Below, piece after piece: positions 7,344 to 43,902 of a stretch of 61,410 nt of DNA; the stretch's first letter is position 1; the number at the start of each line of letters is the position of its first letter. Under the pieces are notes generated by a model that was not told where the DNA came from, did no database searches, and saw nothing but the letters and a program-made list of their open reading frames with translations. A program made the position numbers and the translations under genes. This stretch comes from an uncultured Roseburia sp. (GTDB lineage Bacteria > Bacillota > Clostridia > Lachnospirales > Lachnospiraceae): assembly GCA_947383215.1 (NCBI GenBank), contig CANDCP010000002.1, positions 71,568 through 132,977 of the forward strand, in the 5' to 3' direction.

Positions 7344-9263
7344 ATGCCATCAACATTTTTTGGATTGAATATCGCGTATACGGCGGTGGTATCGGCGCAG
7401 GCCGGGACGAATACGACGGCGAATAATATAGCGAATGTGAGGACTGCCGGTTACAGCAGGCAGGTGGCCAATACGCAGGCGGCGGATGCGATACGGGTGA
7501 ATACGAAATACGGAACAATGGGAGCGGGCGTTGTCACGACGAGCGTCACAAGACTTCGCGACGCTTACTATGATACGAAATATTGGAGAAATCAGTCTGA
7601 CGTCGGCCTTTATGAAAAGCGCCTTTATTATCTGGAACAGATAGAAAATGTTTACGACGACGATGAGGGGAACACAGGGTTTGTCACAATATTCGGGAAA
7701 ATGTTCAATGCGCTCGATACGTTAAAGGGGAATGCCGGAGACTCTAATGTCAGAAATCAGTTTATCAGCAGCGCGCAGAATCTGACGAATTATTTTAACG
7801 GCGTGTCGACACAGCTGAAGAATATGCAGAGCGATATTAATAATGAGATTAAATCTACGGTTGACAGTCTGAATGCGATCGCGCAGAAGATAGCGCTTTT
7901 AAATAAACAGATCAATTCTATCGAGATACAGGGCGGGCACGCCAACGAGCTCCGCGACGAGAGAGATCTTCTGGTGGACGACTTGTCCGAGATTGTTCCG
8001 GTCGAGGTGGAAGAGCATCTGGTTGCGAACAGCAATTATCCTGAGAGCTATACGGGAGCGACAAATTATAAAATTAAAGTAAACGGACAGCTGCTTGTGG
8101 ATACGTTCGATTATCATACGATTGCCTATACGGCGAGAGAAAATAAGATAAATCAGACGGATGTGGACGGACTTTTTGACCTTACATGGGCGGATACGGG
8201 AGTTACCTTTAATCCGACGACGTTAGCGATGTCGGGGAGCTTAAAGGCGCTTATGGAGATGCGCGACGGGAACAATAAGAGCGCGTTCCGCGGAGATGTA
8301 GCGACCGGCGATGCGGCGTACGGGACGGAGGTTGTCGACGGCAGAAATGTGACGACGATTACGATCGAGAATCCGTCGGTGACGGATGTCAGAGATCTTC
8401 ATATCGCGCAGGAGGGAACGCTTACCATCCGCAACAATAAGTACGACTATTCTGATTTCAAGATAACGAAAACGCCGGCGGTAGATGAGAATAACCAGCC
8501 GATACTGGATGAAGATAATAATCCTACTTACACTTACAGCTATACATTTACTCTGGAGCGGGAATTAAGTCCGCTCGAAAAGGGAAAGCTTGCGGGAAGA
8601 GAGGCCATGATTGGAATGAGCATCGATGCGATGGGTGTTCCGTATTATATGGCTCAGATGAGCGAATTTATCAGGTCGTTTGCCGAGTCCTTTAACCGGC
8701 TCCAGCAGGGAACGGAGGATAATCCGGGCGTGGATTTGAACGGCAACGAGATGGGCGTGTTCTTTGTCGCGGACAATAAGGTTGACGGATCGGAATTTGA
8801 TTTTAAGGATACCGATATTTCTGCCTATGCCAACACGTATTATCAGCTCACTGCAGAGACGTTTGCAGTCGCGGACGCGAGCGTGAAGGATCCGACAAGA
8901 ATATCCACGATGTCAAAGAACAATTATACGGCTGGAAAAGACGTAGATGCGTATGATATTGCGGACGCCATATTGAAGCTTCAGACGGATACGACAATAT
9001 ACAGGGGATGTTCGGCGAGCGATTTCTTACAGTGCCTTTTGTCGGACGTCACAGTGGATACGAATGAGGCTGAGCTTTTTGCGGAGAATTTTCAGAATAT
9101 TCGAGCGGTGATTGACAAACAGCGTCAGTCCGTAAGCGGAGTGGATGAGGATGAAGAGGCGCTGGAGATGGAGAAATTCCGTTATTCATACAATCTGGCC
9201 TCGAAAATGATGTCTGTTATGGCGCAGATGTATGATAAGCTGATTAATGAGACGGGCGTATAA
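7344..9263 (+). CDS. flgK: Flagellar hook-associated protein FlgK, second copy
   Basis: 639 aa. The same ends as its neighbour but clearly diverged: NTTANNIANVRTAGYSRQV near the N-terminus, and VSGVDEDEEALEMEKFRYSY near the C-terminus. It is 65 residues longer, the extra length lying in the central domain. Preceded by GGAGGTG and followed 12 bp later by flgL, so it is surely cotranscribed with both. The order FlgK-FlgK-FlgL suggests a three-protein junction, or two alternative first-junction proteins. The separation from copy one looks old, because little identity remains outside the ends. Confidence 0.9.
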   Translation: MPSTFFGLNIAYTAVVSAQAGTNTTANNIANVRTAGYSRQVANTQAADAIRVNTKYGTMGAGVVTTSVTRLRDAYYDTKYWRNQSDVGLYEKRLYYLEQIENVYDDDEGNTGFVTIFGKMFNALDTLKGNAGDSNVRNQFISSAQNLTNYFNGVSTQLKNMQSDINNEIKSTVDSLNAIAQKIALLNKQINSIEIQGGHANELRDERDLLVDDLSEIVPVEVEEHLVANSNYPESYTGATNYKIKVNGQLLVDTFDYHTIAYTARENKINQTDVDGLFDLTWADTGVTFNPTTLAMSGSLKALMEMRDGNNKSAFRGDVATGDAAYGTEVVDGRNVTTITIENPSVTDVRDLHIAQEGTLTIRNNKYDYSDFKITKTPAVDENNQPILDEDNNPTYTYSYTFTLERELSPLEKGKLAGREAMIGMSIDAMGVPYYMAQMSEFIRSFAESFNRLQQGTEDNPGVDLNGNEMGVFFVADNKVDGSEFDFKDTDISAYANTYYQLTAETFAVADASVKDPTRISTMSKNNYTAGKDVDAYDIADAILKLQTDTTIYRGCSASDFLQCLLSDVTVDTNEAELFAENFQNIRAVIDKQRQSVSGVDEDEEALEMEKFRYSYNLASKMMSVMAQMYDKLINETGV

Positions 9264-33972: not shown

Positions 33973-34578
33973 ATGAATATGAAAAAACATTTTAATTATT
34001 TTGATTTCGAAAAGAAGGATGTGGAGCTTTTGCGCAGGGAGATGACGCGCCAGGCTTTTATCAAGACCGCTGCCTCTATGACGGCGGGCGTTGTAATTAT
34101 TATGATCGGGCTGTACCATGATATTAACATTATGGACAGCCCTGTAAAAATATCCAATCCGTCATATATGATCTTTCTTGTCTCTCTGGCTTTTGTGGTG
34201 TTTTGTTTCGGCCTGCATTTTTGCATGGCAATTCGTTCCGTGAGGTTGACGAAGAAGGATATTTTGCAGGTGATTGCGCAGATCGCGCCGGACGGCTATC
34301 ATATTATAAAAACCAGGAGCGGCGGTCTGCTTGTTCAGACATTGCCGGTTTCCGATGATGATAAGCGGCAGTCATTACACATTTTAAAGAGAATGGAGTT
34401 GAATTATCCGCATCTGTCGTCAGAGTTTATGGAATCCTTAAAGGGGATGATAAAGGCGCGCGATCATGAATTATCCGTAGAGGGGGTTCTCAGGACGGAG
34501 ATTATATATGAACAGCTTATGCTGGGAAACGAGAAGATTGTTGATTCTATCGAACAAAACTACCGTAATCCGAAATAA
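33973..34578 (+). CDS. Unknown two-helix membrane protein
   Basis: About 201 aa; no family recognised. Two hydrophobic segments at about residues 29-48 and 66-87 are separated by a short polar loop. The remaining ~110 residues form a cytoplasmic domain with strands (GYHIIKTRSGGLLVQTLPVS) followed by helices. ATG at 33973 has AAGGAAG 5 nt upstream; a TTG at 33937 has its GGGGAGG too close to be used. It follows the two bifunctional GT genes on the same strand, so it may anchor or regulate them, or belong functionally with the ATPase cassette that starts 107 bp later. Confidence 0.6.
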   Translation: MNMKKHFNYFDFEKKDVELLRREMTRQAFIKTAASMTAGVVIIMIGLYHDINIMDSPVKISNPSYMIFLVSLAFVVFCFGLHFCMAIRSVRLTKKDILQVIAQIAPDGYHIIKTRSGGLLVQTLPVSDDDKRQSLHILKRMELNYPHLSSEFMESLKGMIKARDHELSVEGVLRTEIIYEQLMLGNEKIVDSIEQNYRNPK

Positions 34579-34602
34579 TGCCGGATACGAAATACATTTC
34601 TG

Positions 34603-34631
34603 TTGCTGTGCATTCTATTTGATGATACAAT
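34603..34631 (+). promoter_or_regulatory. Sigma-A promoter for the ATPase/STAS/membrane cassette
   Basis: TTGCTG (34603-34608), 17 nt, TACAAT (34626-34631), 54 bp before the GTG start at 34685. It makes the cassette an independent transcription unit. Confidence 0.6.
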
Positions 34632-34684
34632 AAAGGGGTACACAGCAGAGGAAATTATTTGCAATAATTTGGGAGGGATGGGGA

Positions 34685-35872
34685 GTGTTTGATTGCAGCA
34701 GCCTGTACAGCGCGAACAGCGGCGGTAAAAAGCGTACCTATGTTGAGCTTGGGAAAAGGGGCGTAGCGGGGATTCGGCTGTCGGGGGAAAAGATAAACGG
34801 CAGTACGATTGCATATCTGTCAAGGCAGCTATATTTTATTACGCACAACTATAAAAAGGCGTGCCGGGGTATTGTGATTTACTGTGAAAAGTTTGTGCCG
34901 GCTGACAAGTTGACCTATATTTTGTTTGAAGCGATTTTATATAATCTGGTGCATACATATGGATATGAGGTGCGTTTGGGCTGGGGGGATATGAGCACCG
35001 CGATTAATACGGAGGGATTGTCGGATTCCACGATTCCTAAATTATCCTTTTATCTGCAAAACCAGGAGCTGTATCAGCGGAAGTTTCATTTTGAGCAGAA
35101 TGAGAGGCATTTCAGAAGAGTTTTTACTTCGGATCAATTGAAAGGGGACGGGGTTTCCAAGCTTCTTGGAGATCTGAAGATTTTTTTCCTCACCTCGAAT
35201 ATTACAAAGAAAAATACGGATCAGCTGGCGTTGGTTATTTCGGAGCTGGCGGATAATGTCGGGGATCACACGGACGCGGATTGCCTGCTCGACGTTGATA
35301 TCTCAAAGGATTTCTATACGCGGGACGACGACGAGACGGGTAAATACATAGCTGTGAATACGGTTGTCCTGAACTTTTCTCCAAAGTGCTTGGGACACGA
35401 TATAAAAGAGAAGGTACGAAACCATTATTACAAAGAATCCGCGCGCTACGACGCCATACAGGAGGCGTATGAAAATCATAAGCAGCATTTTGACAAGAAC
35501 TATGACGAGCAGGATTTTTTTAATGTCGTTTCCTTTCAGGATTTGATTACGGGCAGAAAGGGAGATACGCAGACCGGAGGGACGGGATTGACGCAGTTGA
35601 TTAAATCTCTGGGAAAAAATGCGGCGGAGCACAGCTGTTATGTGTTAAGCGGCAATCGCGGAATTGCTTTTTATCCGGAATTACTGGAATATAATGCCGA
35701 TAATTGGATAGGATTTAATCAGCAGAAAAATTTTATAGATCATATACCGGACGAGAAAGTTATATTTCGATCGCCCACGCAGCTGTGCGGGACAGGATAT
35801 AATTTTACTTTGGTATACAGGAGGGAAAAGGATGAATTGTATGGCGAAACAGCAAATTCAGTTACAGTTTGA
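34685..35872 (+). CDS. GHKL-type ATPase-like protein with N-terminal STAS-like region
   Basis: 395 aa, GTG start with GGAGG 8 nt upstream. Residues 185-380 look like a Bergerat (HATPase) fold: N-box ISELADNVGDHTDAD (Glu187, Asp190, Asn191) and a glycine-rich lid GGTGLTQLIKSLGKN (from residue 298). The G1 box is abnormal: where DxGxG is expected the strand reads VVLNFSPKCLGHDI. The first ~110 residues (GIVIYCEKFVPADKLTYILF) resemble an alpha/beta STAS-like unit. No His-phosphoacceptor helix pair is seen, so it is more like RsbW/SpoIIAB-type switch kinases or signalling ATPases. Overlaps the next gene by 41 bp. Confidence 0.7.
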   Translation: MFDCSSLYSANSGGKKRTYVELGKRGVAGIRLSGEKINGSTIAYLSRQLYFITHNYKKACRGIVIYCEKFVPADKLTYILFEAILYNLVHTYGYEVRLGWGDMSTAINTEGLSDSTIPKLSFYLQNQELYQRKFHFEQNERHFRRVFTSDQLKGDGVSKLLGDLKIFFLTSNITKKNTDQLALVISELADNVGDHTDADCLLDVDISKDFYTRDDDETGKYIAVNTVVLNFSPKCLGHDIKEKVRNHYYKESARYDAIQEAYENHKQHFDKNYDEQDFFNVVSFQDLITGRKGDTQTGGTGLTQLIKSLGKNAAEHSCYVLSGNRGIAFYPELLEYNADNWIGFNQQKNFIDHIPDEKVIFRSPTQLCGTGYNFTLVYRREKDELYGETANSVTV

Positions 35873-36140
35873 AAAAATAATTACGAATCTTGCGGGGAAT
35901 CGCTTTGGGAGAGACACGTATATAGCGCAGGTGAAAGGTAAAATAGATATAGAGGAAAAAAATATTATAGAGATTCCGGAGATTATCGAAGACGTTGCAA
36001 GTTCATTTGTGCAGGGAATTTACAGGGAATTAAGCGAGCAGTATGGAAAAGAGCGCGCCCTGGAGATTATGGAGCTGCATTCCGTCAGGCCGGAAGTGAT
36101 GGAAAAGATTGAGTACGCAATTCGGGTATACGGAATATGA
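35832..36140 (+). CDS. Small STAS-like (DUF4325-type) protein
   Basis: 102 aa. ATG at 35832 has GGAGGG 6 nt upstream and sits inside the ATPase gene, so expression is coupled. The sequence follows the STAS-like DUF4325 plan: early FGRDTYIAQVKGKI, then EIPEIIEDVASSFVQGIYRE, with Ser57-Ser58 at the place where anti-sigma-factor antagonists carry their phosphorylated Ser, and a final helix with HSVRPEVMEKIEYAI. DUF4325 proteins commonly sit next to HATPase proteins. The likely role is as binding partner or substrate of the ATPase; not shown experimentally as far as I know. Confidence 0.65.
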   Translation: MNCMAKQQIQLQFEKIITNLAGNRFGRDTYIAQVKGKIDIEEKNIIEIPEIIEDVASSFVQGIYRELSEQYGKERALEIMELHSVRPEVMEKIEYAIRVYGI

Positions 36141-36643
36141 CGGTCGTTATTACAGAGGCGGTTCATTCGGGGACTTTGCTGTCGGCATGGGATATCTCGG
36201 ATCGGATCGCCTTGTTTGCATTTGTCCTTTCCGTTATCTCTGTGCTGATTTCTTTCTGGGCGCTGATTCTTCAGAAAAAGTTAAATACGATTAATCTTCA
36301 GGCTGTTTTCTTTGAGAAAATATTTCAGGATTATTTTATTGAAAAAATACCTTCCGCGGCGAAGAAGCTTTCGTTTGATAATAATGGAAAGCTAAAGAGT
36401 TCTTATCGCGAAATAAACAGAACGCTTATGGAAATGATGGAACAATGTATGTATTTTTATTTTGCGAAGAGAGAGTTTTATGACGAATTAAAACAAAGGT
36501 GCCAGCAATTAGAAGATAAATTGATCGAGACATCCAATGAGTTTATCGAAAACAGGTCAAAGCAGAGTGAGTTTATTCATTCTGTCGAGGAGGATATTTC
36601 CGATATCGTAAAATGCATCAATGATAATTACAGCAATAAATGA
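36137..36643 (+). CDS. One-helix membrane protein with C-terminal coiled coil
   Basis: 168 aa; no family recognised. A membrane segment at about residues 24-46 (RIALFAFVLSVISVLISFWA) is followed by a ~70-residue helical region and a coiled coil at about 115-160 (KQRCQQLEDKLIETSNEFI). Starts by ATGA overlap with the STAS-like gene, so all three genes are translationally coupled. The layout (membrane anchor plus cytoplasmic coil) suits a membrane output or scaffold of the cassette. It ends 11 bp before the convergent GT gene. Confidence 0.65.
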   Translation: MTVVITEAVHSGTLLSAWDISDRIALFAFVLSVISVLISFWALILQKKLNTINLQAVFFEKIFQDYFIEKIPSAAKKLSFDNNGKLKSSYREINRTLMEMMEQCMYFYFAKREFYDELKQRCQQLEDKLIETSNEFIENRSKQSEFIHSVEEDISDIVKCINDNYSNK

Positions 36644-42429: not shown

Positions 42430-43734
42430 TTAGCAGTAAGTGTCTAACATCATCCCGGAATAAATAGAAGTGATATAAGGCGTCACAAAATTACGTCCCG
42501 GATTCTTATAAGCCACCAGAATTTTATCTACATAATTCATCGGGTTGATGGAAGCGCGTTCTGCCTTTGCATTGAGGGCATCTTTAAATTGATTTAAAAT
42601 GGAAAAACTCTCGCTGGAGTTTTCCGCGCCCACTGCGTTTGCGAGAAGCGTTCTGTCGATAGAGATCGTTCCGGACGTATCTACAAGAAGTCCGATATTT
42701 TCGAACTCAGTCTGGAAATCTTTTGCGACGCTTCCGATGTCGGAAATTAACTTTACGCTGTCTTTTTGGGTGCGGGAGTAGTTCTGCGCGGTTCCGAGCA
42801 TCTGGTTATAAGAGTCGATAAGCGATTGAATGTTATCGGCGACAGCGTCTACGCTTGTCTTATAGCCTATGGATACCGGACTGCCCTCTTTGCTGGTATT
42901 TTTTAAATTGAGTTCAAAGGTATTGTCGATCGTAAACCTATTCGAATAGGCGCTTCGTTCGCTGCCGTTTAAAATAAAATGTGCGTTATGTGCGTCGGAG
43001 ACGGTGCGTCCGATTCCAAGCGCGTCCATAGCCGCTTTGGAGAGATTGGCGCCGTCCGGCATAATCTGAAAAATATAGTCCTCACCTTCGCGCATTCCGG
43101 TCTGTTTGGATTCGATTTTTAAGGCGCTTCTGTCTCGCTCGTCGGAGACCAGGCTGGCGTCAAGCCCAATATTCGCGGTATTAATAAGTCTGGAAATTTT
43201 ATCAAGAAGCTTACGGTTATTGTCGTTTTGATTTACTGAAAATTGAAATTCATAAGAAGCAACTGTTGTGCTTAAGTCAAAGGAATAGCTTCCTGGTAAG
43301 ATGTCAAGCGTATCATCCCGCAGAAAATTGCCGAGATTCGTCTGTGGAGCGGCAAGCTGTTTTACTTCAACCGTATATTTTGAAGCGCTGTCTTTTTCTC
43401 TGCCGTTGCCTACATAGACGGCGTCCACAATATCAGGATCTGTGGAGACGGCTACCTTTTTGCGAAATGCACTTTCGATTCCAGTGTCATCCGTGGATAA
43501 GGATGCAATAATATTTTTGAGATTACGCGCGTTTTCCTTGATGTCAATAACAAATTTTTCTACATCCCCGGATTCTTTGATCTTATAGAGCGGGGAGTCT
43601 TTGTTGATTTTGACAATATTGTTATATGTGGTACGCAGCTCGCTGCGCTTATGCGCGTCGTATCTGGATACCGACGAATTGCCGTAAGTCGTCAAAAAAT
43701 AATTGTACGCATTGTCCATGACTGCAGTTACCAT
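42430..43734 (-). CDS. FliD/hook-associated-like flagellar protein, short form
   Basis: 434 aa from ATG at 43734, with AAAGGAGGGGG just upstream. A longer open frame to 43770 would include the RBS itself. Resembles FliD in the middle and C-terminal thirds: a YTVEVKQLAAPQTNLGNF segment, FDLSTTVASYEFQFSVN, DNIQSLIDSYNQMLGTAQNY and SIDRTLLANAVG. It lacks the N-terminal GLDTE region and the C-terminal coil (ends TSIYSGMMLDTYC), so it is unlikely to form an ordinary cap. Convergent with the GT8 gene. Confidence 0.6.
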   Translation of the reverse strand: MVTAVMDNAYNYFLTTYGNSSVSRYDAHKRSELRTTYNNIVKINKDSPLYKIKESGDVEKFVIDIKENARNLKNIIASLSTDDTGIESAFRKKVAVSTDPDIVDAVYVGNGREKDSASKYTVEVKQLAAPQTNLGNFLRDDTLDILPGSYSFDLSTTVASYEFQFSVNQNDNNRKLLDKISRLINTANIGLDASLVSDERDRSALKIESKQTGMREGEDYIFQIMPDGANLSKAAMDALGIGRTVSDAHNAHFILNGSERSAYSNRFTIDNTFELNLKNTSKEGSPVSIGYKTSVDAVADNIQSLIDSYNQMLGTAQNYSRTQKDSVKLISDIGSVAKDFQTEFENIGLLVDTSGTISIDRTLLANAVGAENSSESFSILNQFKDALNAKAERASINPMNYVDKILVAYKNPGRNFVTPYITSIYSGMMLDTYC

Positions 43735-43902
43735 ATTTCCCCCTCCTTTCTTCCTTGAAAGTGTTTGCACACTGGGGTAACATAAATCCGTTTATATATA
43801 CATTATAATATGAAAAAACAAATTTGTCATCGGCAATTCGATATTTTTTGCAATTTAACATTGCTTTACATTTATATCGGCGTGTCTGTGGAAAAAAATA
43901 AC

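Follow-up and report, generated by a model that had tools for sequence, protein, structure and literature searches.

Three overlapping genes, here called A, B and C, lie among glycosyltransferase genes in a 61,410-nucleotide stretch of DNA from an uncultured Roseburia sp. (GenBank assembly GCA_947383215.1, contig CANDCP010000002.1), which is referred to below as the window. Do these genes form a system of their own and, if so, what does it do? The original prediction, made from the DNA letters, had read them as a membrane-tethered partner switch and had left the output of the switch open. Our answer, given with moderate confidence, is that they are a mobile three-gene partner-switch cassette, probably directed against phages.

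Three genes inherited as a unit

The layout is the one originally described: three plus-strand genes of the sizes given in Table 1, with overlaps of 41 bp (A/B) and 4 bp (B/C). Judging from homologues, the start of B may instead be the in-frame ATG at 35841; the first overlap would then be 32 bp. Gene A is present once in the genome of the window (77 contigs). The three window proteins, taken singly, had no convincing match in Pfam, PADLOC, NCBIfam or PHROGs. A PADLOC v2.0.0 run on 52 members found no catalogued system (four families were each matched by a single member, best E 0.0013), while 10 of the 52 matched phrog_3364, for which no function is given (best 1.5e-05).

Homologues were collected with A from genomes of the family and genus, plasmids, phage records, genome contigs and viral contigs, and with a single search for B in viral contigs. 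Removal of duplicates left 33 distinct loci, in which near-identical plasmid matches (two Lachnospira, four Lactococcus) are represented once each. When searched with profiles of all three genes, 32 of these loci showed the order A-B-C, 31 of them found through A and one (L038) through B; five (L009, L021, L038, L041 and L062) have a broken, cut or short member. Among 200 genomes of the family, A and B occur in the same four. Over 27 complete trios the protein distances were correlated (r = 0.74 for A-B, 0.78 for A-C and 0.68 for B-C), and none of 2000 permutations gave values as high. The neighbourhood check that had been proposed for this locus thus finds the trio together more often than expected by chance. 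The three genes are a real unit, which is inherited together. The cassette is rare, since class- and phylum-wide draws of genomes returned only the genome of the window (1/391 and 1/398). Pattern scans with the A of the window alone found nothing in viral or genome contigs; an alignment of five A relatives did retrieve homologues where these scans failed.

The borders of the unit are marked by two cassette-free sites within the genus. In one genome (G968) collinearity with the window extends over about 17 kb around the cassette, the main pieces having 73-86% DNA identity. Relative to G968 the window has an extra stretch of about 1928 bp, which begins 2 bp ahead of A, ends with C and contains no other gene. 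G968 seems to have lost the cassette, because only the last ~48 bp of C remain there. At this site (L071, 6621-7035) the upstream gene is separated from what is left of C by some 415 bp without a long match to the window. A second genome (G966, locus L074) carries a cassette of just three genes between rmlA and rmlC (gene names assigned by eye), with 47, 61 and 46% identity to A, B and C of the window. The two rml genes adjoin each other (30-272 bp) without a cassette in six of the seven other genomes of the genus, that of the window included; in the seventh the contig ends. The cassette, carried by two of the eight genus genomes, moves or is lost as a unit.

These sites bear on the idea that the trio regulates the surrounding surface-glycan genes as part of their island. 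The position of the window cassette among glycosyltransferases fits this idea, as does that of L074 in the same genus. However, the flanking genes persist without the cassette in relatives, many relatives are sited elsewhere, and B is a single 102-aa domain in which no DNA-binding part was found. We rank this explanation last because of the cassette-free sites and regard it as very improbable.

A kinase-like protein, a STAS-like protein and a membrane protein

The GHKL fold with an N-box that had been proposed for A is backed by a structure model (predicted local distance difference test, pLDDT, 85.5; predicted template modelling score, pTM, 0.88) and by fold comparison. No dimerisation domain was seen in A, again as proposed. 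The remainder of the protein is a STAS-like domain (residues ~18-125), which had been overlooked before. By its modelled fold, A consists of a STAS domain and, after it, an anti-sigma-factor-kinase domain of the SpoIIAB/RsbW type. With Foldseek alone, neither the model of A nor that of B had a match at E≤0.001. A sequence search of solved structures with the A profile gave one weak match, at the N-box, to Rv1364c (E 1.4), and Pfam matches of single A proteins were weak (HATPase_c_2 in 5 of 20, best E 0.0076). The residues of the N-box and the three glycines of the G2 box are invariant across the 20 A proteins compared (Table 1).

The model of B (pLDDT 87.1) is headed in the VIA-align list by STAS folds, with Z below 8; the STAS reading rests on this comparison, the Foldseek list for B being uninformative. 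PF14213 (DUF4325) was matched by 18 of 21 B members at E≤1 (best 9.9e-07), the B of the window not being among the matches listed. Searching the sequences of solved structures with B gave no useful match, and profile comparison found no sequence similarity between the STAS part of A and B. Ser58 is invariant, and Ser57 is kept in 19 of the 21 B proteins. The proposal of a STAS-like protein with a Ser57-Ser58 pair is therefore upheld by Pfam, model, fold comparison (moderate Z) and conservation. In the fold check suggested for the locus, A resembles GHKL proteins and B resembles STAS proteins.

Hydropathy confirms the single membrane helix foreseen in C and finds it in 20 of 20 aligned sequences. 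In 18 of the 20, the 20 residues after the helix are richer in lysine and arginine than the 20 before it, a distribution from which the tail of C is probably cytosolic. Two C proteins scanned with Pfam had no match to a PIN domain. One relative (L004:226-1176, identical to L032:4279-5229) has a C extended to 316 aa, the extra C-terminal part having no Pfam match; it is possibly an effector variant.

The trio is best read as a kinase-STAS partner switch that has a membrane partner, because of these folds and of the co-occurrence in 32 of 33 loci. In this the original prediction stands, but two of its details do not. Its coiled coil in C was not confirmed, hydrophobic residues occupying 4-6 of 8 a/d positions in each of 14 28-residue stretches (counted with no dedicated predictor). 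Nor was its sigma-A promoter: the candidate is absent from the list of a promoter scan, which gave 2 promoter-like sites in the region versus 6.2 in shuffles.

Table 1. Positions, in window coordinates, of the cassette, its parts and the stretches compared with G968.
Feature	Position	Strand	Remark
Candidate promoter TTGCTG-17-TACAAT (weak)	34603..34631	+	8/12 consensus letters
Gene A	34685..35872	+	395 aa; STAS plus SpoIIAB/RsbW-type GHKL kinase-like; model, fold comparison, homologues
A, STAS-like domain, residues ~18-125	34736..35059	+	Fold comparison of model
A, anti-sigma-factor-kinase-like GHKL domain, residues ~140-381	35102..35827	+	Long stretch precedes G2 box
A, N-box E187..N191..H195	35243..35269	+	Each 20/20
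A, presumed G1 box N230-F231-S232, non-canonical	35372..35380	+	Position 230: N 18, S 1, D 1 of 20
A, G2 box GGTGL (298-302)	35576..35590	+	G298, G299, G301 each 20/20
Gene B	35832..36140	+	102 aa (99 aa if ATG 35841); DUF4325/STAS-like
B, codon of Ser58, presumed phosphorylation site	36003..36005	+	21/21; aligned weakly to DxSF serine of CapS-like proteins
Gene C	36137..36643	+	168 aa; one membrane helix and probably cytosolic tail; presumed effector
C, membrane helix, residues 27-45	36215..36271	+	Mean Kyte-Doolittle 2.63
Stretch without match in syntenic G968	34566..36590	.	DNA comparison
3' end of C, remnant in G968	36591..36638	+	85% over 48 bp

Genomic settings of the cassette

Phage genes stand beside 13 loci (L003/L031, L010, L013, L014, L023, L024, L026-L029, L038, L040 and L041), as judged with PHROGs on 17 hand-picked neighbours, which include a terminase, a portal, a tape measure, an endolysin, a virion protein and a RusA-like resolvase. 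Nine of these loci come from a viral collection, so this part of the sample is biased. When the phage setting is mapped on a tree built from 27 A proteins, it has to change 10 times; well-supported branches, which make up only 8 of the 24 inner ones, force at least 5 of these changes. Loci with this setting do not cluster on the tree, 461 of 500 shuffles giving as low a number of changes. Because the setting changes in this way along the tree, the cassette moves between settings. In L041 (2467-7463) it lies between the terminase large subunit and the portal of a phage packaging operon, with A split over two open frames.

PADLOC was also applied to 10 hand-picked neighbours of five loci, and 7 matched: AbiU and an AbiL-like ATPase in L030, where there is also an integrase, AbiD in both L005 and L006, a PtuA-like ATPase in L016, and two genes of type I restriction-modification in L007. 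Near the cassette of L016 (6044-8536), the PtuA-like ATPase is followed two genes on by a C13 (caspase-like) peptidase; the two may form a defence system of their own. In L005, a plasmid of Enterococcus faecium, the cassette is accompanied by a predicted optrA, an AcrIIA9-family gene, Fic and the AbiD-like gene. Taken together with the work on VapKSC and CapKS described below, the prophage, plasmid and abortive infection (Abi) or restriction-modification context points to a defence triggered by phage or DNA damage as the output of the switch.

The window itself has another setting. Pfam assigned eight of nine window neighbours to glycosyltransferases and one to a FliD-like protein, in keeping with the glycan island first proposed. 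The FliD-like protein (window 42430-43770) stands beside many DUF3880 glycosyltransferases, and the island around it is probably a flagellar-glycan island. Surface-polysaccharide settings recur at four loci (the window and L006; L074 and L019 by eye) but are not family-wide. The branch of the window is chromosomal, and two of the three members of its clade (the window and L074) are in glycan loci.

These settings could also suit a switch that does not kill, in which A and B control C as a regulator of the envelope, or for superinfection exclusion, borne on a prophage or island; C would then alter the surface or block DNA entry without harm to the cell. The small size and membrane anchor of C, the prophage settings and the four surface-polysaccharide loci are all compatible with such a role. 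We nevertheless hold it to be unlikely, as the spread over plasmids, prophages and Abi or restriction-modification neighbourhoods does not track surface loci.

Relation to VapKSC and CapKS and a proposed switch

The closest experimentally described system that we found is VapKSC (Chambers et al., EMBO J 2026; PMC13373217). According to the main text of that paper, it consists of VapK (STAS-GHKL), the STAS antitoxin VapS with an absolutely conserved Ser/Thr and the PIN toxin VapC; a phosphomimic of VapS abolishes inhibition and binding of VapC, and VapK is proposed to sense single-stranded DNA. Protection by the operon against one phage was about 2-log, and 103 of 289 VapKSC loci are near other defence genes. 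The text further reports that CapKS, a pair of the same type, de-represses immune operons after DNA damage and that single-stranded DNA activates CapK, and it names the PDB entries 9Z71-9Z73 and 9Z7O, none of which is among the matches listed in our fold comparisons. DUF4325 is never named in that main text, and "membrane" appears four times, each time for reagents or blots.

As far as it is described there, VapKSC shares with our trio the three-gene layout, a STAS-GHKL kinase-like protein (A), a STAS-like protein with an invariant serine (B) and a third protein. Unlike in VapKSC, the third protein of the trio is a membrane protein and not a PIN nuclease, and A has a non-canonical sequence at its presumed G1 box; here A was compared with CapK-like proteins only and with no VapK sequence. 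CapK and CapS likewise are a STAS-GHKL kinase and an adjoining STAS protein with a conserved serine, but the described CapK has an N-terminal helix-turn-helix (HTH), and CapS has a winged HTH and itself acts as a repressor. Neither feature is seen in A, which is STAS-like from about residue 18, or in B with its one domain. Since it has no PIN nuclease, no HTH and no winged HTH, we file the trio under neither system; it does not belong to VapKSC but, by analogy, probably operates in a similar way. In profile alignments with weak statistics, the SSF of B fell on the DxSF of CapS-like proteins, and the N-box and G2 box of A fell on those of CapK-like proteins. CapK/CapS-like pairs, recognised by eye, occur in another genome of the phylum (L057), on a Nostoc plasmid (L060) and on an Acinetobacter plasmid (L061); these keep D-x-G at the G1 box, whereas the consensus of A is N-F-S. 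Compared with SpoIIAB-SpoIIAA and RsbW-RsbV, A has the GHKL fold and N-box but not the DxGxG motif, and it differs in having its own STAS-like domain, in the absence of a sigma-factor gene from the unit and in a third partner that is a membrane protein. We found no description of the trio in the open-access literature, subscription papers and preprints being outside the scope of the search.

By analogy with these systems, unphosphorylated B would at rest sit on the cytosolic tail of C and keep C inactive. The cue would be phage infection or DNA damage acting on A, as single-stranded DNA does on CapK and is proposed to do on VapK. A would then phosphorylate B at Ser58, phosphorylated B would release C, and the freed C would assemble in the membrane, where growth would stop or the phage be blocked. 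Phosphorylation, toxicity and phage protection by the trio are all carried over here from VapKSC and CapKS.

Several results weigh against this interpretation. Profile comparison with CapKS-like proteins was weak (E 0.0042 and 0.034, low probabilities), and the A profile misses the CapK-like proteins of L057, L060 and L061 at E≤0.01. No sign of toxicity of C was found, a property that we infer only. The one locus of the 33 that lacks the trio, a viral contig (L033), carries a B-like gene but neither A nor C within its 12 kb. Of the 10 neighbours taken as defence candidates, 3 match no PADLOC model, one of them being the C13 peptidase by Pfam; the neighbours were hand-picked with no control set, hence no enrichment figure is given, and some loci have short flanks. 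For the clade of the window (window, L074 and L008; support 100/99), to which PADLOC was not applied, no phage or defence neighbour was found. Finally, the canonical G1 box has the motif DxGxG, and A departs from it: position 230, whose equivalence to the Asp of this motif is presumed, is N in 18 of 20 proteins, which could alter nucleotide binding or kinase activity.

This last point raises the alternative that A is no longer a kinase but a nucleotide-gated scaffold to which B and C bind, the switch working by binding and not by phosphorylation. The replaced Asp would agree with this, and so would the long stretch before the G2 box with invariant residues of its own (H265, Y273, F278 and Q285). 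Yet Glu187, Asn191, His195 and the G2 glycines show no variation, and a Ser58 kept in all 21 B proteins is hard to explain without phosphorylation, so we consider a scaffold improbable.

We give about even chances to the proposal that the trio represents a separate class of bacterial immunity. Here a mobile kinase-STAS-membrane-effector cassette would respond to phage or damage by phosphorylating its STAS antitoxin, which would free a membrane-acting protein; the kinase would have an altered nucleotide pocket, and the effector would vary at its end (helix and short tail, or the 316-aa form of L004). If this is true, the kinase-STAS switch of VapKSC and CapKS extends to a membrane effector on prophages, plasmids and chromosomes, mostly of Bacillota, and bacterial immunity reuses the sporulation-type partner switch as a trigger module to which different outputs can be coupled. 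The proposal lends itself to direct tests, as the cassette measures ~2 kb, the cassette-free sites mark off its borders, and easily handled bacteria carry orthologues.

B is like other DUF4325 proteins by Pfam and in its STAS fold, and such proteins also occur without A or C. Within the phylum, 11 of 249 genomes contain twelve further and more distant DUF4325 places; the 2.2-3.2 kb surrounding these include neither A nor C. Near the B-like gene of L033 (5983-6243; B profile 4.7e-33) there is an open reading frame (7570-8874) that by eye resembles another GHKL ATPase, with no Pfam match. Several of the 12 distant DUF4325 proteins are, by eye, fused to or adjoin a HATPase-like part. L048, L053, L054 and L055 are single chains that by eye join an HTH or STAS, a HATPase and a DUF4325 domain, a switch in one protein.
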